IMG/VR virus record: IMGVR_UViG_3300039310_000049
Span: 1 to 25,593 of that record
DNA length: 25,593 nt
DNA from: a virus
Reading direction: 5' to 3' (one strand)
Of this stretch, positions 8,947-24,592 are shown piece by piece. The notes under the pieces are model-generated. The model was not told where the DNA came from. It searched no databases and saw nothing but the letters and a program-made list of their open reading frames with translations. Position 1 is the stretch's first letter, and each line of letters begins with the position of its first letter. The position numbers and the translations under genes are program-made.

Positions 8947-9516
8947 ATGATCCCCATAGAGAAGTTCATAGGCCGGCTCGGCTCTCAGGCTTTCTACTTC
9001 GCCTGGATTCGAATGTGGTGCCTCGATCATGGCTACGACTTCGAGCGGCTGCACAGCACCGATGAATTCAGGGAGATGCTGAGTCGGCACGGGCCGCTGA
9101 TCCGGTCACTGTATGGGACTGGTATTCCGCCGAGGACAGATCACGTTGCGGTTTCCGTGCGGCGTGGCGATTATGTCGGTGTTTACGTCGGTATCTTCGT
9201 GGATCTCTTCGCGCAGGGTTATTACGAGCGTGCCATGGCGAAGTTCCCGGGCCGGCGGTTTCTGGTGTTCAGTGACGATATCCCGTGGTGCCGCCAGCAG
9301 GCCGTGTTCGCCGGGTGCGAGTTCTGGGATCAAATAGACCCCGTGACGGACATGAACCGGATGGCGGCGTGCTCAGATTTCATTGTGGCGAATTCTGGCT
9401 TCTCCTGGTGGGGAGCTTGGTTGGGCACCAATCCGAACAAGCGGGTGGTCTGCCCAGTGCGCTACGAGTACGAACGCGCGGAAACTTGCATGTTGCCTGA
9501 GTGGGAGAGGGCATGA
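8947..9516 (+). CDS. Family 11-like fucosyltransferase (alpha-1,2 type), short form
   Basis: This 189-residue protein carries the landmarks of GT11 enzymes, which use GDP-fucose. It has GRLGSQAFYFAW at residues 9-20 (usually GRLGNQMFQYA), VAVSVRRGDYV at 67-77 with the donor-binding HxRRGDY-like motif (Ser in place of His), FLVFSDDIPWC at 105-115, and ANSGFSWWGAWL at 148-159. Full-length relatives are near 280 residues; here the region between the first two motifs is strongly shortened. The ATG at 8947 follows AAGGAG. Fucosyl transfer is inferred from the family and the shortened form may differ in donor or acceptor. It opens the second sugar-gene run, which is coupled onward by ATGA overlap. 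Confidence 0.8.
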   Translation: MIPIEKFIGRLGSQAFYFAWIRMWCLDHGYDFERLHSTDEFREMLSRHGPLIRSLYGTGIPPRTDHVAVSVRRGDYVGVYVGIFVDLFAQGYYERAMAKFPGRRFLVFSDDIPWCRQQAVFAGCEFWDQIDPVTDMNRMAACSDFIVANSGFSWWGAWLGTNPNKRVVCPVRYEYERAETCMLPEWERA

Positions 9517-9635
9517 GGATCAACCATAAGTACCAGCCGAAGGGCCGCGACACTGACAAGCCGACGGGATGGATCAAGCGGTGGCTCCGGCGCAAATTGC
9601 GGAGATGGATTGCCAGGATGGACGTGAGATGTTGA
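9513..9635 (+). CDS. 40-residue basic peptide with an amphipathic helix
   Basis: The ATG at 9513 overlaps the previous stop (ATGA) and has GGGAGAGG just upstream. The peptide is Arg/Lys-rich. From Trp20 to Met36, hydrophobic residues fall at 20, 21, 24, 25, 29, 32, 33 and 36 (three Trp, two Ile, two Leu, Met) and Arg/Lys fill most of the rest, giving a textbook cationic amphipathic helix. The stop overlaps the likely start of the next glycosyltransferase (9629). The overlaps on both sides suggest a real gene. It might bind membranes, for example to tether a neighbour or to disturb the envelope, but no family is known to me. Confidence 0.55.
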   Translation: MRINHKYQPKGRDTDKPTGWIKRWLRRKLRRWIARMDVRC

Positions 9636-10294
9636 AATCACCTCGATTCTCGTTGCTGATGCCAACCTGCGACCGACCGCAGTTCATCGAAGAGGCCATC
9701 GGCGCGGTTCTGACCCAGGACTTCACGGACTGGGAGTTGATCATCAAGGATGGCGGGAAGTGGCCCGTGCGCGGCCTGATGCCCAATGATCCGCGCATCC
9801 GGTACAGCCAGTGTGGCGTCCAGTGGGGACTCAACGAGGCACTGCGAGCCGCCCGCGGCGAGATTGTCGGCTTCGCCTCGGACGATGACGTAATGCTGCC
9901 AGGGACGTTGAGCCATGTCGATCAGACCATCGGCGACGCTATGTGGCTCTACGGCCAGATCCGATTCTGTCCAGACGGGAACCCGGTTGGACACCTGATG
10001 GGTGAACCGTGGGACTATGAGCGGCTGAAGCATGTGGACATCGTGCCAGCACCGGCAACTTTCTTTCGGCGGTCCTTAGTTGGCATTGTCGGCGAGTTCG
10101 ACCTGTCGCTGGTGCCGTCCGATTACGATTACTGGCTGAGGTTGGGGGCGCGGTGGGAACCGGTGTATACTGAACGTGTGCTGGTGAACTATCGTGTGCA
10201 CCGAGCTTCGGCTACCGCTATGTTCGGCGAAGAAATGGCACAGCAGACTCGGATGATCTCAGAGCGAGCCCTGAAGGGATATTACGCGCCATGA
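9629..10294 (+). CDS. Family 2 glycosyltransferase
   Basis: This 221-residue GT-A enzyme opens with FSLLMPTCDRPQFIEEAI, has IIKDGG at 38-43 in place of the usual VDDGS, and ASDDDVMLPG at 83-92 as the metal site. A later SDYDYWLRLG block is the acceptor-side motif seen in many GT2 enzymes (usually EDYDLWLRL). I chose ATG 9629, which overlaps the stop of the small peptide gene and is preceded by AGGA. The alternative start at 9569 would add 20 residues that look like noise. The stop overlaps the ketoisomerase start, so this enzyme and the sugar-nucleotide genes are made together. Confidence 0.85.
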   Translation: MLKSPRFSLLMPTCDRPQFIEEAIGAVLTQDFTDWELIIKDGGKWPVRGLMPNDPRIRYSQCGVQWGLNEALRAARGEIVGFASDDDVMLPGTLSHVDQTIGDAMWLYGQIRFCPDGNPVGHLMGEPWDYERLKHVDIVPAPATFFRRSLVGIVGEFDLSLVPSDYDYWLRLGARWEPVYTERVLVNYRVHRASATAMFGEEMAQQTRMISERALKGYYAP

Positions 10295-10701
10295 CAGGCG
10301 TGTCTCTTCAGCGATTGCCCCAGGTTCGAGACCAGCGTGGGCTCCTGACCTTCGCAGAGGTCGAGAAGCAAATCCCCTTTGACGTGAAACGCTATTTCCT
10401 GATTTCTGACGTGCCCTCCAAGGAAGTCAGGGGTGAACACGCCCATCGCAAACTGCATGAGATTCTCATGTGCGTTCACGGCCGGTGCCGGGTATCGGTC
10501 GATGACGGGCAAACCCACCAGGAGTTCGTTCTTGATGATCCTGCTCTCGCGTTGCACGTGCATCCTTTGATGTGGATTGGCCAGTACGGATTCACACGAG
10601 GCGCCGTCCTACTCGTATTCTGCTCTGACAAGTACGACGCGGCCGACTACATCAGGGAGTATTCGGAGTTCTATCGGATCAAACGAGAGGCGGCATCGTG
10701 A
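10291..10701 (+). CDS. fdtA: FdtA/WxcM-type dTDP-4-keto-6-deoxyhexose 3,4-ketoisomerase
   Basis: This 136-residue cupin enzyme moves the keto group from C4 to C3 of dTDP-4-keto-6-deoxyglucose. Family features are DQRGLL at 14-19, the KRYFLI strand, [11 protein letters not shown] at 47-57 with the catalytic HxH pair (50 and 52), a beta-barrel [11 protein letters not shown] turn, and the C-terminal [14 protein letters not shown], a hallmark of FdtA and QdtA. The length is typical. FdtA and QdtA differ in stereochemistry at C4 and I cannot tell which this is. It overlaps the acetyltransferase gene by 4 bases, and the required aminotransferase lies at 5222. Confidence 0.88.
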
Positions 10702-11165
10702 TACACCCGGCCGCCATTGTTGAGACAGAGCAGGTCGGGCCCGGCACTCGCATTTGGGCCTTCGCCCACATTCTGCCAGGAGCGCACATTGGAGCCGACT
10801 GCAACATCTGCGATCACGTGTTCATTGAGAATGATGTCGTGGTTGGGGATCGGGTGACGATCAAGTGCGGCGTGCAGCTTTGGGACGGCATTACAATCGA
10901 GGATGACGTGTTCATCGGGCCGAATGCCACCTTCACGAACGACCCATTTCCGCGCAGCGGGCATCGGAAGCCGTTCCATCCCACTCCCACCATCGTCAAG
11001 CGGGGTGCCTCCATCGGCGCGAATGCGACCATCCTGCCAGGTATCACCATCGGAGAGGAAGCCATGGTGGGCGCCGGCGCGGTGGTCACAGAGGATCTAC
11101 CGGCTGGTGCTATTGCTATCGGTAATCCAGCGCGGATTGTCGGGTACGATGAGGATCTCGAATGA
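10698..11165 (+). CDS. Hexapeptide-repeat acetyltransferase (amino-sugar N-acetyltransferase)
   Basis: This 155-residue left-handed beta-helix protein has many hexapeptide turns: [29 protein letters not shown], then [28 protein letters not shown] and the end [11 protein letters not shown]. It closely follows the WbpD/FdtC pattern, including the FTND segment near the active-site loop. With FdtA (overlap GTGA) and the DegT aminotransferase it would finish dTDP-Fuc3NAc or dTDP-Qui3NAc, using acetyl-CoA. The start is GTG 10698. The C-terminus lacks a helical extension, so it is a compact form. The substrate is inferred from gene context. Confidence 0.87.
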
Positions 11166-11809: not shown

Positions 11810-12436
11810 ATGTTCCGAATCGACTCAGACAAAACAATCAGCTATTTCGAGGACTCGACGTTCCCCCGGCCAATGCAAACCACCGCGCCGGGCGCGCTCA
11901 ATTTCAGTACCGAGAAGGCGTTCGCGGCTCTTGCGGATGCACAGAAATGGACCCGGGAGTTCCTGGAGGAAATCTGGAACGGCTTCGCAGGCGTAGTTCC
12001 GTTCGACAATCTCAAGCTGGTGAAGAAGTTTCGCAACCGGCCTTATGGCATCAAGCAGATCTGGAACGCGATCCAGCGGCTAATCCCGGCTGGGGCTGAA
12101 GTCGCTCCGCAATCGCCGGTTCCGCAAACCAACTCCAAACCGCCGCGCAAGCGCAAAGGCTCTGCTGCCAAAGGGAAAGTCCGCAAGGCAAAGAAGGCAC
12201 CAGTCAAAACGATCGCTCAGCGTGCTCCGCGCGCGCCGCGCTCCGATTCCAACCTAGCGACGCTCATTTCCATGATCGGCCGGAAGGACGGCGCCAGCAT
12301 CGAAGAAGTCATGGAGGCAACGGGCTGGACAAGCCAGCACACCGTTCGCGGGCGGATTTCGATCCTGGGTTCCAAAGGCACCAAGATCGAATCGTTCAAG
12401 GATGCGAAGCGGGGTCGGGTCTATCGGGCGGCGTAA
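11810..12436 (+). CDS. DUF3489 C-terminal domain protein with basic linker
   Basis: This 208-residue protein has three parts. The N-terminal 100 residues are an unrecognised globular region that is rich in Phe and Trp. A Lys/Ala/Pro-rich linker follows (about 105-150). The C-terminal part, about 150-208, reads LATLISMIGRKDGASIEEVMEATGWTSQHTVRG and ends in GRVYR, the DUF3489 pattern, a winged-helix-like DNA-binding domain. The start ATG 11810 has GGAG at 11797-11800. It may be a DNA-binding regulator or nucleoid-type protein. The function is not known, but the domain call is good. The gene ends in TAATG, overlapping the methylase start. Confidence 0.7.
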   Translation: MFRIDSDKTISYFEDSTFPRPMQTTAPGALNFSTEKAFAALADAQKWTREFLEEIWNGFAGVVPFDNLKLVKKFRNRPYGIKQIWNAIQRLIPAGAEVAPQSPVPQTNSKPPRKRKGSAAKGKVRKAKKAPVKTIAQRAPRAPRSDSNLATLISMIGRKDGASIEEVMEATGWTSQHTVRGRISILGSKGTKIESFKDAKRGRVYRAA

Positions 12437-12873
12437 TGCCCTTCACCGCCCACGGGTTCAAGCGGCGGGAGCGCGGCGGCCGGCCCGCGTTCCCGCGCTC
12501 TGCTACCGGCGATTGGGCGACGCCTGAAGACCTCAAGCGTGCGCTCGACGCCGAATTTCATTTCGACCTCGATCCTTGCCCGCTTCAATCGCAGGAGGAT
12601 GGCTTGCTGCCGTTGTTCTCGGATTGGGCGCAGAGGAGAATTTTTGCGAACGTGCCCTACGGTCCGGCGATCCCAAAGTGGTTGAAGCGAGCGCACGAAG
12701 CAGACGTGGCCGTGTTCCTGCTCCCGGCCCGCACGGACACGAAATGGTTTGCAGAGCTTGTCATCCCGTACGCCAGCGAGATCCGGTTCATCAAGGGGCG
12801 GCTGAAATTCGGCGGGGCGAAGACCGGCGCTCCCTTTCCATCAATGCTGGTAGTTTTCGAGAAGGGGGCTTGA
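12436..12873 (+). CDS. Phage N6-adenine DNA methyltransferase (Dam type)
   Basis: This 145-residue protein fits the phage Dam family (PF05869), which methylates adenine using S-adenosylmethionine. Landmarks are DWATPEDLKRALDAEFHFDLDPC near 26-48, IFANVPYGP at 69-77 as motif IV, then FLLPARTDTKWF and IRFIKGRLKFGG, with APFPSMLVVF-like sequence near the end. The usual NPPY is NVPY here, a conservative but notable change in the catalytic loop. Such enzymes may protect phage DNA from host restriction. The start overlaps the previous stop by 1 base. The stop lies in an 18-bp repeat shared with the next gene end. Confidence 0.83.
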   Translation: MPFTAHGFKRRERGGRPAFPRSATGDWATPEDLKRALDAEFHFDLDPCPLQSQEDGLLPLFSDWAQRRIFANVPYGPAIPKWLKRAHEADVAVFLLPARTDTKWFAELVIPYASEIRFIKGRLKFGGAKTGAPFPSMLVVFEKGA

Positions 12874-13333: not shown

Positions 13334-13561
13334 ATGCGAAGATCAAGATCGGGCTGGGATAGACGGTGTGGTATAGACGCAGACTTCTTCCGCAAGATGA
13401 AGAGGTGGGAGCGGTACGTGCGCAGGATGTGCCGGATCTCTGAGTCTATGCGTAGGCGGCACGCTTTCTCTTCCCGTAGCTCAATCAGGGCACTCTGCGT
13501 CAGAGAGCGCACTCCAGAGGCATGGCAAAAGGTGTTGGCAGAGGTGAATAAATGCGCGTAG
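13334..13561 (+). CDS. Small Arg-rich protein of unknown function
   Basis: This 75-residue protein is very basic, with 20 or more Arg/Lys residues (for example MKRWERYVRRMCR and MRRRHAFSSRSS) and a helical C-terminus TPEAWQKVLAEV. The start ATG 13334 follows a good site (GGAGG at 13326-13330). Its end overlaps the start of the next glycosyltransferase by 10 bases. It may bind nucleic acid or be a small structural or regulatory peptide. No family is recognised; the ribosome site and overlap make it likely to be a real gene. Confidence 0.5.
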   Translation: MRRSRSGWDRRCGIDADFFRKMKRWERYVRRMCRISESMRRRHAFSSRSSIRALCVRERTPEAWQKVLAEVNKCA

Positions 13562-14280
13562 TAGGCGTACTTCGTATCAAGAATGAGTCCAGGTGGATCA
13601 CGCGGTCCATCCTGTCGCTGAAGGGGTTGTGCGATGCTGTGGTGGTGCTTGACGATCACTCAACTGACGGGACACCAGACCTGTGCCGGGCGGCCGGCGC
13701 GGACGTAGCGAGCAACCCTTTCACTGGCATCGACGAGAGTAGGGACAAGGACTACCTCCTGACGCTTGCCGCTCCGCACCATCCCGACTGGTGCGTGATG
13801 ATCGATGGCGATGAAGTGCTGGTGGGCGCCGAGTCGCTGCGGAAGGTACTGGAGCTCGCCAGTCCGGCACTGACCACATTCTCGCTGCGGTTCCTGTACC
13901 TTTGGGACCGTGAGGACCAAGTGCGGGTCGATGGCAACTACAACCCAGCGCGATCGCGGCGCCAGGGCATCTGGCGATTCGTGCCCGGGCAGATCTTCAT
14001 GCGGACGCGGTACGGTGGAAACTTCCACTGCGGCTCGGTCCCGCGGCCGTTTCTGGGGAAGGGGGTGTTCACCGATGCGGCCACGATCTTGCACTACGGG
14101 TACCTGGATCGCGCCGAGCGGCTGCGGAAGTACGAGTGGTACAACCGGATCGATCCTGGAAATGATTATGAAAACGGGTATAAACACTTCGTCATTGGCG
14201 ATCTGTTTCCGGTGGATTCCAGGTTTAAGTGGGGAGGGCCGCTGGAACTGGCGCCGCTCGATAGCATTTGTCGTTTATGA
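13552..14280 (+). CDS. Family 2 glycosyltransferase with altered C-terminus
   Basis: This 242-residue GT-A enzyme starts RVVGVLRIKNESRWITRSI, like WaaE/KdtX-type enzymes, with VVLDDHSTDGT at 31-41, MIDGDEVL at 83-90 as metal site, and a WRFVPGQIFMRTR segment. A later DAATILHYGYLDRAERLRKYEWY block is typical of this subgroup. The last six residues (after ELAPL) are encoded by bases that also encode the end of the minus-strand HNH gene, so the native 3' end was probably replaced when that element entered. The loss is likely only a few residues. It may act on a lipid- or protein-bound sugar. Confidence 0.82.
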   Translation: MRVVGVLRIKNESRWITRSILSLKGLCDAVVVLDDHSTDGTPDLCRAAGADVASNPFTGIDESRDKDYLLTLAAPHHPDWCVMIDGDEVLVGAESLRKVLELASPALTTFSLRFLYLWDREDQVRVDGNYNPARSRRQGIWRFVPGQIFMRTRYGGNFHCGSVPRPFLGKGVFTDAATILHYGYLDRAERLRKYEWYNRIDPGNDYENGYKHFVIGDLFPVDSRFKWGGPLELAPLDSICRL

Positions 14281-14989
14281 GGCGAGAAACGACGCTCGGA
14301 TCAACACCAAGAATCAAAGCGATCTGCCGCATCTTCACTTCTCCAGTGGCATACACCATCCTGATACGATCAGCCTCCTGATTAGTAAATTTTCTCCCTG
14401 CTCCTATATGGCCTTTTGGGGCTCCGACGCGGCTCTGACGGCCCTTAGCTACCATATCAGCGACGTTCTCGGCCTGAGTGGCAATGAAAAGGTGGTCGAT
14501 GTTTATGCACGGTGGATTGTCGCAGTGGTGGCACACATACTTACCTTCAGGGATTGGCCCGCGATAGACCTCCCAAGCCGCACGATGGGCCAGCGTGTGA
14601 TCGAATTTTCCATAGCCGCACCTGTCGATGCTCCCCTGGAATATGATGCACCCTGATGGATCGGGGCGGGCAAACCTTTCCAATCGTTGTTGACGCGACA
14701 GGGGCGTGCTGCCGGTAACCCCTATTCGAAGGTGATCCGGTCGAACACAAAGCTGGTTCATGCAGAGCCTGAACACATCAAAGCCTTCAGCGACCGACCC
14801 GTTCGCAATTAGCCATGCAGCGCGGTGAGCGGTTATGTGCCCACTGCCGCCATAATGGAACACGCCGTGTCCATGAATCGCTACCGGCCCGCACCAAATC
14901 CAGCAGCCATCTCCTTTCTTGATCATAGAGTGAAACCGAGCAACCTGCTTAACCGAAAACGCAGCAGCCATAAATTTGCTTTTGCCCAT
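14225..14989 (-). CDS. Tandem HNH endonuclease with C-terminal helix-turn-helix
   Basis: This 254-residue protein is the only minus-strand gene. It seems to contain two HNH_3-like modules. The first (about 28-95) has GCWIWCGP, AHRAAWL and a RLCMNQLCVRPDHLRIG end that lacks the usual first His. The second (about 110-180) has YGKFDHTLAHRAAWEVYRGPIPEG, CHHCDNPPCINIDHLFIAT and looks competent. A C-terminal resolvase-like HTH (MRQIALILGVDPSVVSRLIND) follows. The last ten codons after CYR are read from the opposite strand of the glycosyltransferase and are not family-like. It points against the surrounding operon, consistent with independent mobility. The ATG at 14989 is supported by the first domain's position. 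Confidence 0.85.
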   Translation of the reverse strand: MGKSKFMAAAFSVKQVARFHSMIKKGDGCWIWCGPVAIHGHGVFHYGGSGHITAHRAAWLIANGSVAEGFDVFRLCMNQLCVRPDHLRIGVTGSTPLSRQQRLERFARPDPSGCIIFQGSIDRCGYGKFDHTLAHRAAWEVYRGPIPEGKYVCHHCDNPPCINIDHLFIATQAENVADMVAKGRQSRVGAPKGHIGAGRKFTNQEADRIRMVYATGEVKMRQIALILGVDPSVVSRLINDKCYRAAPVPAALPT

Positions 14990-15908: not shown

Positions 15909-16142
15909 ATGCCTGAGCAAATCTCTCTGATCGACGTGGCCGCTGAGCCACTGCCCGAGTTCGTGCCGCCGCGCACGGAGATCTTCCTGGTGCTGGCGTT
16001 TCATCGACAGATGGGCATTTGGAAGGTGCATCGCGAGTCCAACAGGGATGAACATGCATCGCAGGCAGAAGCAGTAACAGCGGCAGGAAAACTCGCGGCC
16101 GGTTGGACGCATCGCCGGGTATTGCGGGTGGTCGCGGAATGA
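15909..16142 (+). CDS. Small unknown phage protein
   Basis: This 77-residue protein begins MPEQISLID with an acidic, Pro-containing N-terminal third, then an FLVLAFHRQMGIWKVHRES strand pair and a QAEAVTAAGKLAAGWTHRRVLRVV C-terminal helix-strand. The second half resembles a small alpha/beta domain. Ribosome site GAGGGTGAAG at 15895-15904. The stop overlaps the next start (ATGA), so it is coupled to the winged-helix gene. No family recognised. Confidence 0.6.
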   Translation: MPEQISLIDVAAEPLPEFVPPRTEIFLVLAFHRQMGIWKVHRESNRDEHASQAEAVTAAGKLAAGWTHRRVLRVVAE

Positions 16143-16462
16143 GCAGCGAAGATCGCAAGGCATTGTACCAAGAGGCCCCACTGCTGGCCGCTGCGTACTT
16201 TGATGGCGAGACCTACGATCCGGCGTTGGACAAGCACCGACTGGCGAAGCAACTCCAAGCGGTGTACAATCTGATGCACGATGGCGGTTGGCGCACGTTG
16301 CGGGAGATTGCGGACGCGCTCAGCATACCGGAAGCCAGCGCATCCGCCCGCTTACGTGATCTTCGGAAAACACGCTTCGGTTCCCATCGCGTTGAGCGTC
16401 AGCGCCGAGGCGAAGAGAAGCGGGGATTGTTCGAGTACAGGGTGGAGATTGCAAGCCAATGA
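16139..16462 (+). CDS. Winged-helix DNA-binding phage protein
   Basis: This 107-residue protein has a helix-turn-helix pattern: RLAKQLQAVYNLMHDGGWRTLREIADALSIPEASASARLRDLRK, with a basic wing (RVERQRRGEEKRGLFEYRVE). This is a common small phage protein in recombination modules, with a winged-helix fold resembling the start of MarR or ArsR proteins. The N-terminal 35 residues are acidic (FDGETYDPALDKHRL). It probably regulates or assists the exonuclease gene, which overlaps it by ATGA. ATG 16139 overlaps the previous stop in the same way, so I prefer it to 16103. Confidence 0.72.
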   Translation: MSSEDRKALYQEAPLLAAAYFDGETYDPALDKHRLAKQLQAVYNLMHDGGWRTLREIADALSIPEASASARLRDLRKTRFGSHRVERQRRGEEKRGLFEYRVEIASQ

Positions 16463-17622
16463 TCGACAACGAATTGAGAAGCCGTGGCGTGGGAGCGAGT
16501 GAGGTAGCCGCCGTCCTTAATCTTGATCCCAGGCGTGACCCTTTCGCGGTCTACATCGACAAGATCGGGCAAGCGCCGCGAGAGGACAATCCGACCGAGC
16601 GCATGAAGCGCGGCAAAAGATTCGAGAGGGCCATTGCCTCCTGGTATGGCGATCTGACAACACAGCCGGTCGTGTGGTTTGACAAAACCCTTCAGCATCC
16701 GACGCGGACGTGGCAGATAGTGACTCCAGACGCCTTTGTGGTCCGCAGATACGGAAGCGAAGAGATTTTGGATCGGGACCTAGAATTGCAGTTGGAACGC
16801 ATAGGTGGTGTTGATGCAAAAACCGCTGGCATCGGGGCGTGGGACGAATGGGGCGAGTCCGGCTCCGACATCGTACCAGAGCGGGCGGCGCTTCAGTGCC
16901 AATACACCTGCTCAGCCCTCGACCTTCCGTGGTGGGACCTGGCTTGCGCCTTTTCTTTAGACGAACTCCGCATCTACCGCATTCACCGTGACCCGGCGAT
17001 CGAAGCGATGCTGCTTGAAGCGGTCGAAGATTTCTGGGTGAATCACGTACTGGCGCGGGTGCCGCCGCGGCCAGGCGCCAGTGATGCCACGAAAGATGCG
17101 CTTCGCCGGCTGTATCCGAAAAACGTACAGCCCCTGCGGGCCGCGACCGAAACCGAGTCGCCGCTGATCGAGTCATTCAAGGCGGCGTATCAGGATGAGA
17201 AGCGGGCGGCGCGGGTGCTGGCAGAGGCGCGCAACCAATTGATCTACGCGATAGGAGAGGCTGAAGGGCTACTGGCCGGGCCGGAAAAGCTGACGTACAA
17301 AAGATCAAAGGACTCGGTGGGTGTCGCATGGGAACAGGTTGCTCGCGAGTTGGGCCTACGGCTGGAACTGCTGAAGCCGGTAGTCGAGTGGGCGCTGCTC
17401 AACGCGTCGATACATCACGATGACAGGAATGCCATCATGCTTTCAGAGAACTTCTCGGCCGACGTGGGTGCACTGAAAGCAGTGGCGCGGAACGGCACGG
17501 CGCTATCGCTTCCAGGCTGGTGGGACCAAGATTTCGAGCAGCTTGCCGCTGAGCACCAAGGAGTGACGCGCGAGGGCGTGCGAAAATTGATCGTGCCCCG
17601 CGCCTGGGGATCGGAGGAATGA
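16459..17622 (+). CDS. YqaJ-type viral recombinase exonuclease
   Basis: This 387-residue nuclease likely degrades DNA ends to give single strands for phage recombination, like lambda Exo. Visible motifs: RGVGASEVAAVLNLDP (residues 9-24), RGKRFERAIASWYG with Glu56, TPDAF with Asp91, and GGVDAKTAG with Asp119 and Lys121 (the D-x-K part of PD-(D/E)XK), followed by QCQYTCSALDLPWWDLA, the usual Gln-x-Gln and Trp-rich helix. The C-terminal 150 residues are a helical extension (EKRAARVLAEARNQLIYAIGEAEG) typical of large YqaJ proteins. It overlaps its neighbour by 4 bases. The RecT-like partner is at 18762. Confidence 0.87.
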   Translation: MIDNELRSRGVGASEVAAVLNLDPRRDPFAVYIDKIGQAPREDNPTERMKRGKRFERAIASWYGDLTTQPVVWFDKTLQHPTRTWQIVTPDAFVVRRYGSEEILDRDLELQLERIGGVDAKTAGIGAWDEWGESGSDIVPERAALQCQYTCSALDLPWWDLACAFSLDELRIYRIHRDPAIEAMLLEAVEDFWVNHVLARVPPRPGASDATKDALRRLYPKNVQPLRAATETESPLIESFKAAYQDEKRAARVLAEARNQLIYAIGEAEGLLAGPEKLTYKRSKDSVGVAWEQVARELGLRLELLKPVVEWALLNASIHHDDRNAIMLSENFSADVGALKAVARNGTALSLPGWWDQDFEQLAAEHQGVTREGVRKLIVPRAWGSEE

Positions 17623-17999
17623 TGGGTGAGACACCGAAGCGCATTCAGCGAAAGCGTTCCGCCGGTTGGCGGATGCCAGAGAACACGGTCTACGTCGGCA
17701 GGCCGACGAAGTTCGGGAACCCGTACTGGGACATCGCGCGCTACGGTCTTGATCTCTGCATCCGATTGTTCCGCGAGACCGCGACCGGATGCTGGAATCC
17801 TTTACTGATCCCCGAAGGCCCACTCGCGAATTCCTGGCATAAGTGGCTATACCGTGACCACTGCGCATGGCTGAAACGCATCGGAGGCCATCCTGTCGAA
17901 GAGATCCAGGCTGAGTTGCGCGGAAAGAATCTGGCTTGCTGGTGCAGGCTTGATCGCCCGTGCCATGCAGATATTCTGTTGGAGATTGCGAACCAGTGA
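17619..17999 (+). CDS. DUF4326-domain protein
   Basis: This 126-residue protein fits DUF4326: KRIQRKRSAGWRMPENTVYVGRPTKFGNPY at the N-terminus, then an HPVEEIQAELRGKNLACWCRLDRPCHADILLEIAN C-terminus with Cys and His that may bind metal. The domain is frequent in phages and actinobacteria; its role is unknown to me. GGAGGA gives a strong ribosome site, and ATG 17619 overlaps the exonuclease stop; ATG 17622 is equally possible. Confidence 0.85.
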   Translation: MMGETPKRIQRKRSAGWRMPENTVYVGRPTKFGNPYWDIARYGLDLCIRLFRETATGCWNPLLIPEGPLANSWHKWLYRDHCAWLKRIGGHPVEEIQAELRGKNLACWCRLDRPCHADILLEIANQ

Positions 18000-18071
18000 T
18001 GCACGCCCGATGGTGAAGTCCATTGCGGACTACGTGGGGCGGTGGCTCGCGCTACGGTTCAATCTTCCCTC

Positions 18072-18101
18072 TTGACAACCACCATTCATCAGGTGCAGAA
18101 T
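18072..18101 (+). promoter_or_regulatory. Promoter candidate before the RHH gene
   Basis: TTGACA (18072-18077) in the context CTCTTGACA, 18-base spacer, CAGAAT (18096-18101), four of six at -10. The -10 box overlaps the ATG at 18100, so if used, transcription would start near the second ATG at 18109 and translation would be leaderless, or the promoter serves only downstream genes. Confidence 0.42.
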
Positions 18102-18261
18102 GGGACGTATGGGACAAAAGAACGCAGCGGTTGAACGTGCCGCTATTCTGAAGGTTGAAATACCAGCAAGTCTCAAACAGCGGATCAAGGTGTATGCAGC
18201 CGAGACTCGGCAGACCTTGAAGCAGGTGGTCGAATCCGCTGTGCGGGCATACTGCAAGTAG
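18100..18261 (+). CDS. Ribbon-helix-helix (CopG/Arc-type) protein
   Basis: This 53-residue protein matches RHH repressors: a beta strand ILKVEIPASLKQRIKVYAAETRQ followed by TLKQVVESAVRAYCK, the strand-helix-helix layout that dimerises to bind DNA operators. N-terminal residues are basic. It may be an early-gene repressor or plasmid-partition-type regulator. AGGTG lies 5 bases before the ATG at 18100; ATG 18109 is the alternative. A 21-codon frame (18010-18075) upstream and the gap to the HNH gene carry nothing else that I can support. Confidence 0.7.
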   Translation: MGRMGQKNAAVERAAILKVEIPASLKQRIKVYAAETRQTLKQVVESAVRAYCK

Positions 18262-18292
18262 AGGCCGGTACTGCGGCCATTGGAACGCTTGC

Positions 18293-18772
18293 ATGACGAA
18301 AGCGCGTATTGATCGATTCATGGAGAAGGTCAGTCCAGAACCCAACACCGGGTGCTGGTTGTGGCTCGGTTCTACCAGCGATGATGGCTACGCCGAGTTC
18401 GGGATTGCCGCAAGCAGGAAGACTAAAGCACACCGATACATCTACAAACAGACGAAGGGGCCAATCCCGGAGGGGCTGGAACTAGATCATCTCTGCCGAG
18501 TGCGATGCTGCGTTAACCCGCTACATTTGGAAGCGGTAACCAAATCGATCAATCAAAAGCGCGGATTGAACGCTTCAGCGGAATATATTCAGTTCCGGAT
18601 CGAAGCGAGGCGGAAGAAGGCAGCGGCCCGCACGCATTGCTGTCACGGCCATGAACTCAATGCGGAAAACACATACATGCGTGGCCACAGCAAGGCGTGC
18701 AGGGCTTGCATGGCAGATGCGTGCAAGAGGGCGAGAACAAAACAGGAACTGGAGGAACGTGATGGCAGGTAA
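18293..18772 (+). CDS. HNH endonuclease with C-terminal zinc finger
   Basis: This 159-residue mobile nuclease has an HNH_3 core: GCWLWLGSTSDDGYAEF, AHRYIYKQTKGPIPEGLELDHLC, then CCVNPLHLEAVT. A C-terminal finger follows, CCHGHELNAENTYMRGHSKACRAC, the same unit as in the small gene at 15126. A weak ribosome site precedes ATG 18293. Its end overlaps the start of the RecT-like gene by 11 bases, so it likely entered just upstream of that gene without destroying it. Confidence 0.87.
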   Translation: MTKARIDRFMEKVSPEPNTGCWLWLGSTSDDGYAEFGIAASRKTKAHRYIYKQTKGPIPEGLELDHLCRVRCCVNPLHLEAVTKSINQKRGLNASAEYIQFRIEARRKKAAARTHCCHGHELNAENTYMRGHSKACRACMADACKRARTKQELEERDGR

Positions 18773-20435
18773 CGAGATGGTTCCCCGCGAGGAGACTGGA
18801 GTGTCGTATCGCGATGACTTTTCGGGCACCGAAGTAATCAAACAGGCTGAAACGACCATCGCCATGATGGCGGCTCAGTCTAAGGCGCTGATCGAAGCAC
18901 GTTTCATCGTCGCCATGCGGGCCGGGCGCAATATCGAGAAGCTCCGGCTGAGCGTTGGTGATCTATGCCGAAACCCGAAGTTTGCCGAGACGGCGCTGTA
19001 TCTGAAGCCAGTCTCGAAGACGCCGCGGGGATGGGCCATGCTGCCCATGCGGGACCGGCTGCGGAGCGAATTGCTGAAGCGCGAGCGCAACCGTGGCGCC
19101 CGGCCAGGCGATGACAACGAGCAGGAATGGCCGATGGGCTTTAATATCAGATTTATAGAAGCCGCCATTGCGGAGGCCGGCCACATCGACGTGAACGCAA
19201 CCGTCATCTGGGAGGATGACGAGAAGCGCATCACCAAGGTGGACGTGGTTGACCTGTACAAAAACATCGGCTGGTCGCGCACCGTGGTGACCAAGAAGAC
19301 GGTGGAGCGGCGCAAGCTCGGACAGGACCAAGAGCCACTGTTCACTCGGCGAAACAGCTTCGGCGACATACTCTTCGTAGTGGAAGCCACCGAGGCCGAG
19401 GTGCTCCAAGCCGAGGCCGCATCGGTGAGCAAGTCTGTTCGCACGATGGCCGAGCGCATCTTTCCCGGCCACCTGAAGTTGGAGTGGCGCCAGATTGTCG
19501 AGGCCACCATACTCAACGAAGCGGCCCAAGACCCGGAGGGCAAGCGGAAAGAAATCATCGACGCCTTCCACACCATCGGGATTGAACCCGATCACCTTTC
19601 GAAGTATCTGGAGCACGATATCGCGCTCCTGCAACCAGCCGAGTACCTGAGCCTGAAGGTCATCTACTCCTCAATCCGAAGCGGGGAAATCACATGGGCA
19701 CAGGTCATGGAGTCGAAGTTCGGGCCGGCCGAGGGTGCCGAGGAGACCAAGGGTGCCAGGGCGCTCAAGGACAAACTGGAGAAAAAGGTGGCTGAACTGC
19801 GAACCGAGCAGCAAAAGCCACCCGCAGCCGCCACCGCAGCCCCTCCAGCAGCCCCGCCGGCTCCCGGCCCCACTACCCCCACCGAGCAGCCGCCGGCGCA
19901 ACAGGCCAAGCCTGAGCCTCAAAGCGCCCCATCAGAAGCGGTTTCCGGGACTCTTGGAACCGCCAAGGCGTCTAGTCTGCCGCCTCAACCGTCTAATCTG
20001 CCTCCAGTTGCGACCGCCACGGATGACATCGTGAGGTGTCCCCACTGCCATGTGAACGTGGTTGCCAGCGCGATGGATGCCCACTTGAGCGAGTGCCTAT
20101 CCATAAAACGTGGAGAAACTCCACAGGATGACCTCTTTGCCGACAAGAAACCGGCCGAGCCCGATCGGTCCCTGAAGACCTACGGCGCGGCGGCCGACTT
20201 CCCGGCGTTACCCGACGTGTTCGACGTGAAGCCCGGCTTGGAGGTCTACTTCATCGAAGGCAAAACGCGGAAGCGGCTGCGCGCCGAAGAGGACACCTGG
20301 AAGTTGGTGTCGGCAGAGGACTACATGGCGCCCGCCATGCCGCCACTGGTGCCCCCTGGACCGCAGGTCGTACCAGAAGCTGGTCCGCAGCCGGCCGCAG
20401 GCTTCAATTTCCACAAAGGGAAGGGGAAGCGCTGA
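18762..20435 (+). CDS. RecT-like annealing-protein candidate with Pro-rich linker and zinc finger
   Basis: This 557-residue protein is probably the single-strand annealing partner of the YqaJ exonuclease. The N-terminal 250 residues show a phage pattern: ALIEARFIVAMRAGRN, LCRNPKFAETALYLKPV, NIRFIEAAIAEAGHIDVN, a VDLYKNIGWSRTVVTKKTVERR block and KSVRTMAERIFP. Such proteins sit by exonucleases in many phages. A Pro/Ala/Gln-rich linker follows (about 360-420), then a CxxC...H-x3-C finger near 425-446 (CPHCHVNV..HLSEC) and a short acidic-aromatic domain. ATG 18762 has GGAGGAACG just upstream. An earlier in-frame start would lie inside the HNH gene. The annealing role is inferred from family and context. 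Confidence 0.72.
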   Translation: MAGNEMVPREETGVSYRDDFSGTEVIKQAETTIAMMAAQSKALIEARFIVAMRAGRNIEKLRLSVGDLCRNPKFAETALYLKPVSKTPRGWAMLPMRDRLRSELLKRERNRGARPGDDNEQEWPMGFNIRFIEAAIAEAGHIDVNATVIWEDDEKRITKVDVVDLYKNIGWSRTVVTKKTVERRKLGQDQEPLFTRRNSFGDILFVVEATEAEVLQAEAASVSKSVRTMAERIFPGHLKLEWRQIVEATILNEAAQDPEGKRKEIIDAFHTIGIEPDHLSKYLEHDIALLQPAEYLSLKVIYSSIRSGEITWAQVMESKFGPAEGAEETKGARALKDKLEKKVAELRTEQQKPPAAATAAPPAAPPAPGPTTPTEQPPAQQAKPEPQSAPSEAVSGTLGTAKASSLPPQPSNLPPVATATDDIVRCPHCHVNVVASAMDAHLSECLSIKRGETPQDDLFADKKPAEPDRSLKTYGAAADFPALPDVFDVKPGLEVYFIEGKTRKRLRAEEDTWKLVSAEDYMAPAMPPLVPPGPQVVPEAGPQPAAGFNFHKGKGKR

Positions 20436-21736
20436 TGGAACGGATAGTCGCAGTCGAGATCACCGATATCCGGTCCATCAAGCAGGTGGTGTTGCGGCCG
20501 AAGGCACTGAACGCCATCCTGGGCGATAACGGGCAAGGAAAGACCAGCATCATCCTGGCGATCAAGGCCGTCTTTTCGGGCGGCCACTCCCCGCTCTTAC
20601 GTCGGCAGCTACCTGATGGCACCTACGTCAAGAAGGCCAGCGTCAAACTGACTGGTGACGATGGCACAACCATCCTGAAGGTTATCAGGGAAAAGACCTC
20701 TGAGTTGACGGTCACAAGCCCAACCGGAGTTGAGATCCCTGGCCCGCAGGAGTACGTCGAGAATTTAGCACACGGGTTTTCCTTCGACCCACTGCAATTC
20801 ATCGAAGCCAAGCCGAAGGAGCGAGCAGCCTACCTGCAACGGGCGCTCAACCTGACCTTCACCGTTGAAGAGGTGTCGGAGATCGCTGGCCCATACGGGT
20901 TGAGCCCAGCCAAGCCGGTAGACCTTGACGGGTTGGATGCGCTACGCAAGGCGATCTACGAGGCCCGCACGAAGGTCAACGGCGCCGCCAAGGAGGCCAA
21001 CGGAACCGTGTCGCGGCTGTCCAAGGCGCTTGAAGAGGATGAGAAGACCGACTGGGATACCGAGGTCCAGCGGATTCAAGGAGAGCGTGAGCAGGCCATA
21101 CAGGCATGGTCTGATGGCAAGCAGGCCGTCAAGAACGATGCGGATGCGGCGCGCCAGCAGATCAATTTGGCGGCAGACGAGGAGATCGCCAGAATCAACA
21201 GGGAACGCAGCGCGGCCCTCTTGGATGCTGCTGCTGTTGAATCTGATGGCATAGGTGGGGTGGAAGCCGAAGCCCGACCCGTGATCGAGCGGTTGAATCA
21301 GGAACTCGGCACAGCGCAGGCCAACGCCAAAAAGAAGCACCAGATGGAGGTGTTCCGAGCCGAAGTCGAGCAGGCGCGGAAGGCGAGCGAGGGGCATGAG
21401 GTCACTTCTACCGGGATGACGGCGGCACTGAAGGCGCTCGATTTCCTGAAGGCTTCCAAACTCGAATCCCTGCCAATACCGGGCGCCGACTTCCGCGGCG
21501 GGGAATTCTATGTGAACGGTCTGCCGTTCGATTCCCTCAATGATGGGCAGAAGTTCCTGACGGCGTTCCAAGTGGCAGCCCTGATGCCGGGCGACCTCGG
21601 GGTACTCATTGCGGATCGAGCGGAGATCCTGGGGCCTGACAACTGGCAGGCGTTTCAGGACGCGGCCTTGCAGTCCGGCTTCCAGGTGTTCGTTACCCGA
21701 GTCCAGCCAGGGCCTCTCGAAGTGAAGACGTTGTGA
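20435..21736 (+). CDS. RecF/SbcC-like SMC-type ATPase
   Basis: This 433-residue protein has an SMC-type head split by a coiled coil. N-terminal ITDIRSIKQVVLRPKALNAILGDNGQGKTSI contains the Walker A GDNGQGKTS at 30-38. A long Glu/Lys/Ala-rich coiled coil spans about 175-330. C-terminal FDSLNDGQKFLTAFQVA resembles the ABC signature and LGVLIADRAEIL a Walker B with D-x-x-E spacing, ending FVTRVQ. It is shorter than SbcC. In phages such ATPases pair with nucleases and annealing proteins in DNA-end processing. It starts 1 base inside the RecT-like gene's stop (TGATG), so both are coupled. Confidence 0.82.
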   Translation: MERIVAVEITDIRSIKQVVLRPKALNAILGDNGQGKTSIILAIKAVFSGGHSPLLRRQLPDGTYVKKASVKLTGDDGTTILKVIREKTSELTVTSPTGVEIPGPQEYVENLAHGFSFDPLQFIEAKPKERAAYLQRALNLTFTVEEVSEIAGPYGLSPAKPVDLDGLDALRKAIYEARTKVNGAAKEANGTVSRLSKALEEDEKTDWDTEVQRIQGEREQAIQAWSDGKQAVKNDADAARQQINLAADEEIARINRERSAALLDAAAVESDGIGGVEAEARPVIERLNQELGTAQANAKKKHQMEVFRAEVEQARKASEGHEVTSTGMTAALKALDFLKASKLESLPIPGADFRGGEFYVNGLPFDSLNDGQKFLTAFQVAALMPGDLGVLIADRAEILGPDNWQAFQDAALQSGFQVFVTRVQPGPLEVKTL

Positions 21737-22215
21737 TGCGTATTCATGGCGACAAACCGAAAGATCGGCCACCCGCTCCAGAGTACACAGGCTGGATCAG
21801 GATGAAGGATCGCTGTCGAAACCCGAAGAGCGAGGATTTCAAGCGGTATGGAGGGCGAGGCATCAGCGTCTTTGCGGGATGGCTGCACGATTATCCGGCC
21901 TTTCTGTCTCACGTTGGCAGAAAGCCAACTCCAAAGCACACGCTAGACCGTATTGACAACAACGGAAACTATGAACCAGGCAATGTGCGGTGGTTGTTGC
22001 AGAGGCTCCAGAGCCGCAATCGCAGGGATAATCACCTGTTGACGATGGGCGGCGTCACGCGCTCCGTGGCCGAGTGGAGCGAGGTAACAGGGATATCTTC
22101 ACCAACGATTTTATATCGAATCAGGCGAGGAATTTCGACGATTGATGCTTTGACTATTCCAGCCGGAAAAGGCGGAACTCGGGTTGTTGATCGTCGGGCG
22201 GAGGCGCTGCCGTGA
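21736..22215 (+). CDS. HNH-like protein with C-terminal DNA-binding repeat
   Basis: This 159-residue protein matches the small phage family with YTGWIRMKDRCRNP, RYGGRGISVFAGWLHDYPAF, LDRIDNNGNYEPGNVRWLLQRLQSRNRR, an HNH-like fold in which the classic first His is not obvious. The C-terminal part (GGVTRSVAEWSEVTGISSPTILYRIRRGISTIDAL) is a NUMOD/IENR-type helix-turn-helix. It is likely mobile or formerly mobile. The first codon may also be GTG 21733. It overlaps the ATPase stop and gives a GTGA overlap to the next tiny gene. Confidence 0.8.
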   Translation: MRIHGDKPKDRPPAPEYTGWIRMKDRCRNPKSEDFKRYGGRGISVFAGWLHDYPAFLSHVGRKPTPKHTLDRIDNNGNYEPGNVRWLLQRLQSRNRRDNHLLTMGGVTRSVAEWSEVTGISSPTILYRIRRGISTIDALTIPAGKGGTRVVDRRAEALP

Positions 22216-22301
22216 TTGGCCGGCCACGACTGCCCATAGCCGCCTGGCTGCTGTTCGTTGGGCTCGTCTTGGTTGTTGCTTGGCAGTGGGGAACGCAATG
22301 A
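22212..22301 (+). CDS. 29-residue single-span membrane peptide
   Basis: GTG 22212 overlaps the previous stop (GTGA) and its own stop overlaps the next start (ATGA at 22298). The peptide has a short basic N-terminus (GRPRLP) and a hydrophobic run of about 17 residues (AAWLLFVGLVLVVAW), a clear membrane span. Overlaps at both ends in a packed operon argue for a real gene. It might be a small membrane-acting early protein. Function unknown. Confidence 0.55.
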   Translation: MIGRPRLPIAAWLLFVGLVLVVAWQWGTQ

Positions 22302-22597
22302 CCTTGAAGAAAGGTGAGGTGTACCTGGGAACGTGGGCCGGCGAACCTGCATGGTTGCGGGTCACGTCGATTACACTGTGCACGGATGGATCATCATTGG
22401 TGGGCTTCTGGGTGGTACCGTCCCGCTGGTGGCCGAAGTGGTTGTGGTGGTCATGCTTTTTACATAAGATTGTCAGTGGTCGAGACTTTGTTGATCGGCT
22501 TGACCGCGCCACCGCAATCCATCAGCGACGAAAAGACGAGGCCGCAAAAGCAGTTGGAAGTCGAGAGGTTTCCCAGGTAGAAGTTCGATACCGATAA
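22298..22597 (+). CDS. Small unknown phage protein
   Basis: This 99-residue protein begins MTLKKGEVYLGTWAGEPAWLRV, a beta-rich half, followed by a Trp-rich segment (SRWWPKWLWWSCFLHK), which could lie near a membrane, and a charged C-terminal helix (DRLDRATAIHQRRKDEAAKA). It overlaps the tiny membrane peptide gene by ATGA. An upstream in-frame start (22184) would read through two other genes and is rejected. No family recognised. Confidence 0.55.
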   Translation: MTLKKGEVYLGTWAGEPAWLRVTSITLCTDGSSLVGFWVVPSRWWPKWLWWSCFLHKIVSGRDFVDRLDRATAIHQRRKDEAAKAVGSREVSQVEVRYR

Positions 22598-22607
22598 GGA
22601 GAAGACG

Positions 22608-23300
22608 ATGGCGAAGGTAATCTTTCGAGGCGCTCGGGTGCGCTTCGCAGACGTGCGTGAAGGGAAGGCGGGCGTTTATACGCGGATCTACGTCACCGCT
22701 GTATTCAGTGACGTGGTTCGCCGGGCAATGGGATGGGGCGTCAACGAAGATGGCGTCCTAACGCCGATGATCGTGAACAGCGGCAAGTTGGGTGGCGAGA
22801 TCCACGCGACCCATATAATTCTCACTCCGAATGGAAAGGAGCTGAGAAAGCACGAACTCCAATTGGATGTGGAAGTGGTCGATGACTTCCAGTACTTCCG
22901 GGTTACAGATTCCGATTCAGAGTCGATCTCTGAGGAGGTTAGGTTCACTGTCCACACCGCAGTGAGTGGTGCCGCCGGTCTGCTTGAGAACTACATGCGG
23001 AAGATCGGAACATCCGACAAGTCCGTCGGGCAGCTTCGGATCGCCTACGAAGAGCAGATGGAACTGGGCGAGCCGCCGGCCGATGACGCCGAAGAGGGTG
23101 GGACATGTGTTGACTGTAATAATGGGATTGCCTTGGTTGACGGTGATCCGACGATGCACGTATCCGGCCAACCGTGCGCAGCCTACGAGGGCGATGGAGA
23201 GGGTGGCCCGGCGCTGGCCAGCGTGGCGCAGATGGGCAGCGGGCACCGGAAGCGGGGTCGCGGGCAGATTGTGGAAGCCACGGCCGAACCGGTGAACTGA
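22608..23300 (+). CDS. Conserved phage protein of the recombination module, unknown
   Basis: This 230-residue protein opens with MAKVIFRGARVRFADVREGKAGVYTRIYVTAVFSD and has a long beta-rich first half with VVDDFQYFRV, then FTVHTAVSGAAGLLENYMRKIG and an acidic tail with CVDC. The beta-rich start recalls small phage proteins found next to exonuclease and annealing genes; it could be a single-strand-binding-like or accessory protein, but I see no clear OB-fold signature. A strong ribosome site (AAGGAG) precedes ATG 22608. The C-terminal Gly-rich end (HRKRGRGQ) is basic. Confidence 0.68.
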   Translation: MAKVIFRGARVRFADVREGKAGVYTRIYVTAVFSDVVRRAMGWGVNEDGVLTPMIVNSGKLGGEIHATHIILTPNGKELRKHELQLDVEVVDDFQYFRVTDSDSESISEEVRFTVHTAVSGAAGLLENYMRKIGTSDKSVGQLRIAYEEQMELGEPPADDAEEGGTCVDCNNGIALVDGDPTMHVSGQPCAAYEGDGEGGPALASVAQMGSGHRKRGRGQIVEATAEPVN

Positions 23301-23304
23301 AGCC

Positions 23305-23637
23305 ATGGGAAACAACGCAGCCTTCACCAGCTTCGAAGCGTCGGTTATCGCCGTCTACAACAGAGGCGTACTCGACAAGGAACTTCTGGACGCCCTGGCC
23401 GCTCCATACGAAGGCATGGACATCGACCGGGGCGGACAGGAAGGAACACTCGCCAAGGACGGCTTGGACATCGACGGGGTGATCTGCAAGATGTATGGCG
23501 TCGTTTTGGCGCCGTATCCCGACATCCCGAAGGATTATCGAGACTGGACGCCTGAACAGCAGGCCCTCAATGATAAATGGGTCGAGGCCAAGTACGAGGC
23601 CATCAACAAGATTGAAAAGCAATGGGGATGGGGATGA
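23305..23637 (+). CDS. Small acidic phage protein, unknown
   Basis: This 110-residue protein reads FTSFEASVIAVYNRGVLDKELLDALAAPYEGMDIDRGG, then KDGLDIDGVICKMYGV and an acidic, Trp-containing C-terminus. The pattern Y-x-RGVLD...LLD-x-LA is familiar from other phage early regions, but no function is known to me. It starts 4 bases after the previous stop and overlaps the next gene. Confidence 0.6.
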   Translation: MGNNAAFTSFEASVIAVYNRGVLDKELLDALAAPYEGMDIDRGGQEGTLAKDGLDIDGVICKMYGVVLAPYPDIPKDYRDWTPEQQALNDKWVEAKYEAINKIEKQWGWG

Positions 23638-24068
23638 CCTGCGCCTTCTGCCCGGCTACCGAAGATCTGATGACCTGCGATTTCTCCGTCTACGACTTTG
23701 TCCCGTCTGCGTATTGGCGTTTGCGGATTGGTGACAAGGTCCACAGGTTCCCAACCGGGGACAGGATAGATGACCGAACGCGGCCACCAGCCGAGGTGGT
23801 GATGCTGCAAGCCTACCTAGGTGGTACAGCAGTCCAGATGTCAGTTTTGGCGGCCAGTCCGCCTGGCTGGTATCGCCCCACGGTCGAAGTAACGCTCAAG
23901 AAGGTGAACGGTAAATTGATCCGACGAGTAATGCGCGCCGACGCGCCGGTTCAGGTGCTGGAGGACCGCAGTTGCGGCGCTCTGGCCTGCGAGTTGCACC
24001 GCTGCGAGCGTGGCCCAGGAGCGACGTGTTGCCGGGACCACTGGAGCGTTCTGGAGCAGGTGGCCTGA
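23634..24068 (+). CDS. Cysteine-rich small protein, possible zinc binding
   Basis: This 144-residue protein has an N-terminal TCAFCPATEDLMTC and a C-terminal CGALACELHRCERGPGATCCRDHW, so two Cys-rich ends around a beta-rich middle (AYWRLRIGDKVHRF, VEVTLKKVNGKLIRRVM). Together the ends could form one metal site. I chose ATG 23634, which overlaps the previous stop (ATGA); ATG 23622 or 23628 would only add Met-Gly repeats. No family recognised. The stop overlaps the next start (TGATG). Confidence 0.6.
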   Translation: MTCAFCPATEDLMTCDFSVYDFVPSAYWRLRIGDKVHRFPTGDRIDDRTRPPAEVVMLQAYLGGTAVQMSVLAASPPGWYRPTVEVTLKKVNGKLIRRVMRADAPVQVLEDRSCGALACELHRCERGPGATCCRDHWSVLEQVA

Positions 24069-24592
24069 TGGTCCTCCGCATGTCCCAGGCGCAATTCGGT
24101 CTATTCCAGGAGCAGCAACGCAAGGGCGGCGGGGCGGGTCCGAAGGAGGGCCAACCTCGCCAACCACGCCAGCGGCGCCGCAAAGACGATCTCCCTGAGA
24201 ACATCCTTGAAGGCCAGATCAAAGGTTTCCTGGAAAGCCGTGGCTGGATTCTTACCCGCAACCATGTGGGCACTTTCTTGCCGGCCGGCGTGGTGATGCG
24301 CTTGATCGAGTCTGGCACTGCATTGACGAAAGAGGCTTTGTTCCGGTGTATGGTCCGCATCGGCCAGAAAGGATTTCCTGATTGGACCGCAACGCGGCCA
24401 GTACCGGGCCAGCAGTACCGCAGGGACTGCTTCGAGTTCGAGGCGAAGGCTCCAGGCAAGCGCCCATCGCCAGAGCAGCGCCTGTGCCTTGAGAAGCGGG
24501 CCGCCGTCGGGCTGGCCTGCGTTTGGTTTGATGATTTCGACGGTGATTGGGATACCAGTTTTCTTCCCTGGTATAGGGAGAGATTTGCATGA
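24068..24592 (+). CDS. VRR-NUC-like nuclease
   Basis: This 174-residue protein has a basic N-terminal region (QPRQPRQRRRKDD) then ENILEGQIKGFLESRGWILTRNH, GQKGFPDWTATRP and RDCFEFEAKAPGKRPSPEQ. The PD...E-x-K layout and KRPSxEQ tail match VRR-NUC, a PD-(D/E)XK nuclease often found in phages and thought to act on structured DNA. It belongs in the recombination module with YqaJ and RecT-like proteins. The start overlaps the previous stop by 1 base; ATG 24080 is the alternative. Confidence 0.82.
   Translation: MVLRMSQAQFGLFQEQQRKGGGAGPKEGQPRQPRQRRRKDDLPENILEGQIKGFLESRGWILTRNHVGTFLPAGVVMRLIESGTALTKEALFRCMVRIGQKGFPDWTATRPVPGQQYRRDCFEFEAKAPGKRPSPEQRLCLEKRAAVGLACVWFDDFDGDWDTSFLPWYRERFA

Follow-up and report, generated by a model that had tools for sequence, protein, structure and literature searches.

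A probable phage recombination module of a YqaJ-type exonuclease, a phrog_3657 protein and an SMC-like ATPase

In the phage recombination modules of the RecE/RecT and lambda Exo/Beta kind, a PD-(D/E)XK exonuclease gene lies beside an annealase-type gene on the same strand of the early region. YqaJ and DUF3799 exonucleases are also described beside recT in Firmicutes (survey PMC8093625). We analysed the entire 25,593-base IMG/VR-type record IMGVR_UViG_3300039310_000049, an uncultured phage contig (the window), whose plus strand carries the likely genes from 16103 to 24592. The same arrangement is present there: a YqaJ exonuclease gene at 16459-17622 shares a strand with a gene at 18762-20435 that belongs to phrog_3657, a family annotated as "unknown function". 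We read the locus as an exonuclease-annealase module of the RecE/RecT, lambda Exo/Beta kind in which the annealase family is its own and an SMC-like ATPase is optional, a reading that is probable, at roughly 0.8, and not proven. Three features set the window apart from the described modules: Pfam RecT does not match the core of the 18762 product, the gene is followed by one for an SMC-like ATPase, and HNH and DUF4326 genes intervene. By megablast, the whole window had no match among 50,697 phage records.

Exonuclease genes beside phrog_3657 genes

The genes at the centre of the locus, with the parts of the 18762 product, are as follows (aa, amino acids; ORF, open reading frame).

16459..17622, plus strand: YqaJ/RecE-like exonuclease of the PD-(D/E)XK type, 387 aa (PF09588, phrog_434)
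17619..17999, plus strand: DUF4326 protein (PF14216, E 4.4e-20), with an ATGA overlap with the exonuclease stop
18293..18772, plus strand: HNH-like ORF that lies between the genes for exonuclease and annealase, a probable homing-type insertion
18762..20435, plus strand: candidate single-strand annealing protein of the phrog_3657 family, 557 aa (profile, models, fold comparison, context)
18852..19721, plus strand: aa 31-320 of the 18762 product, comprising the predicted annealing core and a helical region (model secondary structure, family alignment)
19821..20033, plus strand: Pro/Ala-rich linker, aa 354-424 of the 18762 product (from the translation)
20037..20096, plus strand: C2HC finger CPHC-x11-HLSEC, aa 426-445 of the 18762 product (pattern search)
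20435..21736, plus strand: SMC/RecF/SbcC-like ATPase, 433 aa (phrog_1499, AAA_23), coupled by TGATG to the annealase stop

The 16459-17622 product matches Pfam YqaJ (PF09588, E 5.1e-13, 50 bits against a cut-off of 22) and phrog_434, 'RecE-like recombination exonuclease' (E 4.5e-58), confirming the YqaJ exonuclease of the original prediction made for this DNA. Its sequence contains TPDAFV, VDAKT and LQCQ, which we take to be the catalytic motifs. The DUF4326 product had no relative among the other 75 loci described below. The HNH label of the 18293-18772 ORF comes from a motif that we presume to be diagnostic; the ORF resembles a minus-strand ORF of the window at 14225-14989 (phmmer E 3.2e-18) and one ORF of locus L009. 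The DUF4326 gene, the 18293-18772 ORF and the HNH endonuclease gene at 21733-22215 had been missed by the original prediction. GGAGGAA (18751-18757) lies ahead of the ATG at 18762.

The only family matched by the 18762 product was phrog_3657 (E 2.1e-29, model positions 17-275 of 289), with no Pfam family above cut-off and no NCBIfam family. Relatives were collected by tblastn (six Acinetobacter phage records and seven plasmid-collection records) and by an alignment-based scan (70 IMG/VR loci, L001 included, and one genome contig), giving a phrog_3657 set of 76 loci with the window and 30 representatives at 85% identity. With the homologue of Pseudomonas phage Dolphis as query, 86 phage records were found, at least 35 of Mycobacterium and at least 18 of Gordonia phages among the 60 of 86 rows listed. 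The named-phage proteins are about 20-35% identical to the window protein; those of the Acinetobacter phages, Pseudomonas phage Dolphis, Mycobacterium phage phiT45-1 and Gordonia phage Twister6 belong to the same family by profile and likewise lie beside an exonuclease.

Every one of the 30 representatives has a PD-(D/E)XK exonuclease gene on the same strand within about 2.4 kb, and these exonucleases belong to several families. Iterated searches found a YqaJ relative upstream on the same strand in 17 and a DUF3799/exonuclease VIII relative, likewise upstream, in 6. Inspection by hand placed a YqaJ-domain exonuclease, above the Pfam cut-off, next downstream in L004, L010, L028 and L032, and a PD-(D/E)XK exonuclease of the phrog_298 or phrog_69/DUF2800 kind in L035 (Pfam below cut-off, phrog_298 E 3.6e-21), L069 (one gene separating it from the phrog_3657 gene) and L070. 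Pfam scans covered the exonucleases of the window and of L002 (the type protein of the upstream YqaJ group) and the seven by-hand cases. The exonuclease-annealase pairing proposed for the window finds support in many loci. The representatives are related to each other, and the varied exonuclease families and two gene orders are the part hardest to explain by shared descent. 

Genes of known annealase families were sought in 32 carrier records, namely 26 of the 30 representatives (all except L004, L028, L032 and L066) and six Acinetobacter-type records, several of them fragments from which genes may be missing. Pfam RecT (PF03837) was unmatched in the window, the 31 further carrier records and ten diverse family members, with Sansa and A118 matching as controls. 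ERF (PF04404; P22 control matched) was unmatched in all 32 by the same kind of scan, as were Rad52_Rad22 (PF04098) and SSAP_Sak (PF06378), whose controls from ul36 and Lactococcus lactis matched. A weak phrog_4171 match in record G005 (120-362) falls, after conversion of coordinates, inside the L010 exonuclease ORF and was given no weight. The 18762 product could instead be a single-stranded DNA (ssDNA)-binding or exonuclease-accessory protein that does not anneal, the annealing being left to a host or phage protein; Dolphis is one example of a phage with an ssDNA-binding (SSB)-like protein encoded close to such a module. We consider this improbable: the 18762-type gene holds the place that RecT has elsewhere beside exonucleases, in records where the known annealase families went unmatched. 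For the annealase reading, this context is stronger evidence than the fold.

Predicted fold and relationships of the 18762 product

AlphaFold models were built on 29 aligned relatives and were read for the order of secondary-structure elements. With the window core the pLDDT (predicted local distance difference test) reached 83.8, and with an Acinetobacter relative, L038, it reached 85.9. PMC9870868 defines the Rad52 superfamily by helix 1, a β-hairpin, helix 2, an antiparallel three-stranded sheet and helix 3 across the sheet. The L038 model follows this five-element order (helix 44-55, strands 67-72 and 76-81, helix 83-93, strands 96-105, 109-118 and 123-132, and helix 164-186), with further short strands between the three-stranded part and the long helix. 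The window model has the same order, the hairpin being rudimentary (two 3-residue strands); a window insertion of about 35 residues (near aa 88-120), common to L001 and shorter in L006, falls between the hairpin strands.

In structure comparison with VIA-align, annealase entries accounted for 11 of 50 rows with the window model and 14 of 50 with the L038 model; RAD52, Mgm101, 80-alpha Sak and Red-beta aligned to both. These rows had Z values of 4.2-6.3, mostly over 94-143 residues (one Sak row spanned 156 residues at a root-mean-square deviation of 11.1), and the closed-ring RAD52 entries reached 5.5-6.3 over 131-143 residues. In a library of viral models, five unnamed proteins led and an Erf protein came next (E 9.7e-4); 14 of the 16 named proteins in the top 50 were annealing proteins, with Erf, Rad52 and RecT among the names. 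The structure matches listed included neither Listeria RecT nor Gp2.5, from which the exclusion of neither follows. A Rad52/Red-beta-type fold is predicted for the core, and a fold unrelated to RecT/Redbeta, the outcome named beforehand as refuting, did not occur in the models. The protein can be called RecT-like in fold, with reservations, and not by membership of the RecT family in sequence.

At the sequence level the family stands apart. All 29 aligned members matched phrog_3657 in PHROGs, other families being matched by at most three members each and a Sak-like family only once, at E 0.2; hmmscan of these members against NCBIfam and Pfam gave merely scattered weak matches to unrelated families. 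A PDB sequence search returned a single match, 7bqq 'Gogy' (E 0.0015), which is unrelated. An Arg in helix 3 is invariant in 47 of 47 members, and Arg makes up 7 of the 22 invariant columns of the family alignment. Compared with the Rad52/Red-beta/Erf/Sak superfamily, phrog_3657 shares the predicted element order and the alignments to RAD52, Mgm101, Sak and Red-beta; it differs in the missing sequence-profile link, in about 100 extra helical residues after the core and, in the window, in the insertion at aa 88-120. The Pro-rich linker and CxxC...HxxxC finger described in the original prediction are both there (CPHC...HLSEC, aa 426-445). The finger is no family trait, a C2HC-like pattern being found in the tails of 4 of 47 members (the window, L022, L069 and L394; a fifth match, in L011, lies upstream of the gene and was not counted), and it is therefore not what makes the phrog_3657 family work. 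Literature searches, with subscription papers outside their scope, found no paper calling phrog_3657 an annealase.

Most of the listed phrog_3657 records are annotated as hypothetical; RecT-like or ssDNA-binding labels appear in a few Gordonia phages and in the M. abscessus prophages that were listed. The phiT45-1 relative was deposited as 'RecT-like ssDNA binding protein', after a 'RecE-like exonuclease', and the Twister6 relative as an ssDNA binding protein with the note RecT, beside RecE. Over its final 74 aa, phiT45-1 gp49 matches phrog_4171 (E 1.1e-6) in the C-terminal part of this RecT-like family, of which Giles gp53 is a member (E 6.4e-124). A C-terminal segment is thus apparently common to phrog_3657 proteins and phrog_4171 RecT-like proteins in mycobacteriophages (L403 3896-5068, L405 5869-7317), and one possible reading is that annealing cores have been swapped on one common tail. 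Labels and tail together invite the view that the 18762 product belongs to the RecT family proper and has merely diverged very far. This we regard as highly unlikely: the shared segment lies outside the core, the core profile is unlinked to that of RecT, Red-beta is no closer than RAD52 in the fold comparison, and the Pfam RecT scans described above found nothing in the window, the carrier records or the diverse members.

Several results weigh against taking the 18762 product for an annealase. All annealase Z values were below 8, and RAD52 was outranked by LptE, whose Z reached 6.9 and 7.5 over about 65-68 residues and whose rows covered fewer residues than those of the annealases, mostly 64-100. 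For neither model did Foldseek find a PDB match at E 0.001, and its best rows were not annealases. When the core was aligned by hhalign to RecT, Sak and Erf profiles, the scores stayed within the range of 39 control families for both the 30- and the 47-sequence alignment, so we do not assign the core to RecT, Erf, Rad52 or Sak; the profiles comprised 11 (RecT), 32 (Sak) and 3 (Erf) sequences, those of RecT and Erf being narrow. Among the actinophages, the record names may rest on gene position, the Twister6 tail alone matched phrog_4171 at E 0.092 only, and BLASTP of Giles against phiT45-1 found no match at E 1. The middling Z values and the missing family-level sequence link to any annealase also fit the non-annealing protein considered above, against which the predominance of annealases among the named viral models counts. 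We retain the annealase reading.

The phrog_1499 ATPase

The 20435-21736 product matches Pfam AAA_23 (31.9 bits, cut-off 27) and phrog_1499 (E 2.2e-51), and TGATG at 20433-20437 overlaps the stop of the 18762 gene with the ATPase start, as expected from the RecF/SbcC-like ATPase coupled to that gene in the original prediction. With SbcC/Rad50, RecF and T4 gp46 it shares Walker A and SMC/AAA_23 similarity; it differs in its 433 aa, its short coiled region and the want of a regular Walker B Glu, and no SbcD/Mre11 partner was identified in the window.

The ATPase recurs with such modules. Exonuclease-phrog_3657-phrog_1499 triads were present in 5 of the 76 phrog_3657 loci; in Dolphis, phrog_1499 lies next to a DUF3799 exonuclease and phrog_3657, and in Caulobacter phage Sansa it lies near RecT and an exonuclease. 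Among 80 further viral phrog_1499 loci, 14 carried phrog_3657 (13 of these with an exonuclease), 9 carried RecT and 44 an exonuclease; the Sak and Erf profiles, narrow as used here, matched nothing. Gene order varied and strand was constant in the 43 loci with matches. SMC genes near recT had already been listed in the survey PMC8093625. The proposed association of the ATPase with annealase and exonuclease genes finds support in many loci.

The same counts leave some room for an independent SbcC/RecF-like early protein that sits here by chance. Its presence in just 5 of 76 phrog_3657 loci would suit that explanation, as would the 35 of 80 phrog_1499 loci in which narrow profiles saw neither exonuclease nor annealase. 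Of 37 phrog_1499 loci left without a partner by another profile search, 4 gave Pfam RecT matches that fell short of the cut-off and 1 matched PDDEXK_1. The degeneracy of the Walker B and signature motifs points the same way. Nevertheless, 45 of the 80 loci do show an exonuclease or annealase, on the same strand in all listed ones, the partners include both phrog_3657 and RecT, and the survey's SMC genes stand beside recT as well; we hold an independent protein to be possible and rather unlikely.

The Walker A Lys is invariant in 85 of 85 phrog_1499 sequences, among them the window's 20435-21736 product and those of L323-L402. In the MAFFT alignment, on which these two counts depend, 11 of 85 sequences have Glu after the Walker B position and 8 of 85 keep the second signature Gly. 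Arg stands at the expected Walker B Asp in 34 of 85 sequences. With a signature and Walker B so degenerate, the phrog_1499 protein could be a clamp that hydrolyses ATP slowly or not at all.

In the mechanism we infer, a DNA end would first be resected by the YqaJ enzyme, leaving a 3' single strand (a polarity assumed here), and the 18762 product would bind and coat this strand and anneal it to a complementary strand through its Rad52/Red-beta-type core. Contacts with partners or with DNA may be made by the Pro-rich tail, which here has a C2HC finger. Close to the end, the SMC-like phrog_1499 protein may bind both ATP and DNA, and either keep hold of the end or the annealase or pass it on. A bolder version, tentative and on balance doubtful, makes phrog_3657 a further widespread Rad52-type annealase family, unnamed in the surveys consulted and varying in its exonuclease type, that in a subset of phages would have a dedicated SMC-like, ATP-bound clamp or loader instead of a fast ATPase, giving a three-part end-recombination machine.

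Other genes of the window and wider meaning

Five further plus-strand features flank the module.

16103..16462, plus strand: small protein with weak winged-helix similarity, overlapping the exonuclease start, possibly on the same transcript
21733..22215, plus strand: HNH endonuclease, probably an insertion (phrog_3377, E 1.5e-46)
22608..23300, plus strand: orphan protein, no family or relative found
23305..23637, plus strand: orphan protein, no family or relative found
24068..24592 (longer ORF from 23972), plus strand: endonuclease-like protein (phrog_93), the VRR-NUC of the original prediction

The 16103-16462 product matches phrog_16568, 'Ren-like exclusion protein' (E 7.6e-5, aa 45-89), and Pfam MarR_2 under cut-off. 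The expectation of several conserved small proteins was not borne out: when the ORFs at 22184, 22608, 23305, 23622 and 24589 were compared with those of the other 75 loci, none had a relative there. Neither the 22608 nor the 23305 product has a PHROG or Pfam family or a relative in the 50,697 phage records, and the former was also without one in a pattern scan of viral contigs; the partner role that the original prediction gave to these two products finds no support. The 22608 product was considered as an SSB and rejected, phmmer against the Dolphis and Sansa SSBs giving nothing and a PDB sequence search giving E 0.3 or worse. The endonuclease-like gene at 24068, whose start overlaps the preceding stop as TGATG, matches only phrog_93, 'endonuclease' (E 1.3e-6). 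Its GFPDW...FEFEAK may be read as a VRR-NUC motif, on our assumption. The 206-aa product of the longer ORF (23972-24592) had no Pfam match at E 0.1, VRR_NUC included, tblastn found it in no phage record, and it did not match the Dolphis VRR-Nuc; a plus-strand endonuclease-like gene thus stands, and its VRR-NUC assignment by Pfam does not.

Elsewhere, Pfam identified a DegT aminotransferase (5228-6313), an FdtA-type isomerase (10291-10701) and a hexapeptide acyltransferase (10698-11165) in this one phage, a trio similar to FdtA/FdtB/FdtC, which make an acetamido-dideoxy sugar. Five glycosyltransferase-family genes (3692-4360, 6335-7300, 8947-9516, 9569-10294 and 13552-14280; Pfam) lie between tail-type and early genes, which suggests possible sugar decoration of the virion, DNA or host surface. 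A DNA adenine methyltransferase-like gene lies at 12436-12873 (PF05869, E 1.1e-12).

If the module reading is true, a function open to testing could be given to a family listed as of unknown function, whose phages infect Acinetobacter, Pseudomonas, Mycobacterium and Gordonia at least, and new exonuclease-annealase pairs would become available for genome editing in hosts poorly served by lambda Red. The recurring ATPase would point to a recombination step that simple Exo/Beta pairs do without.

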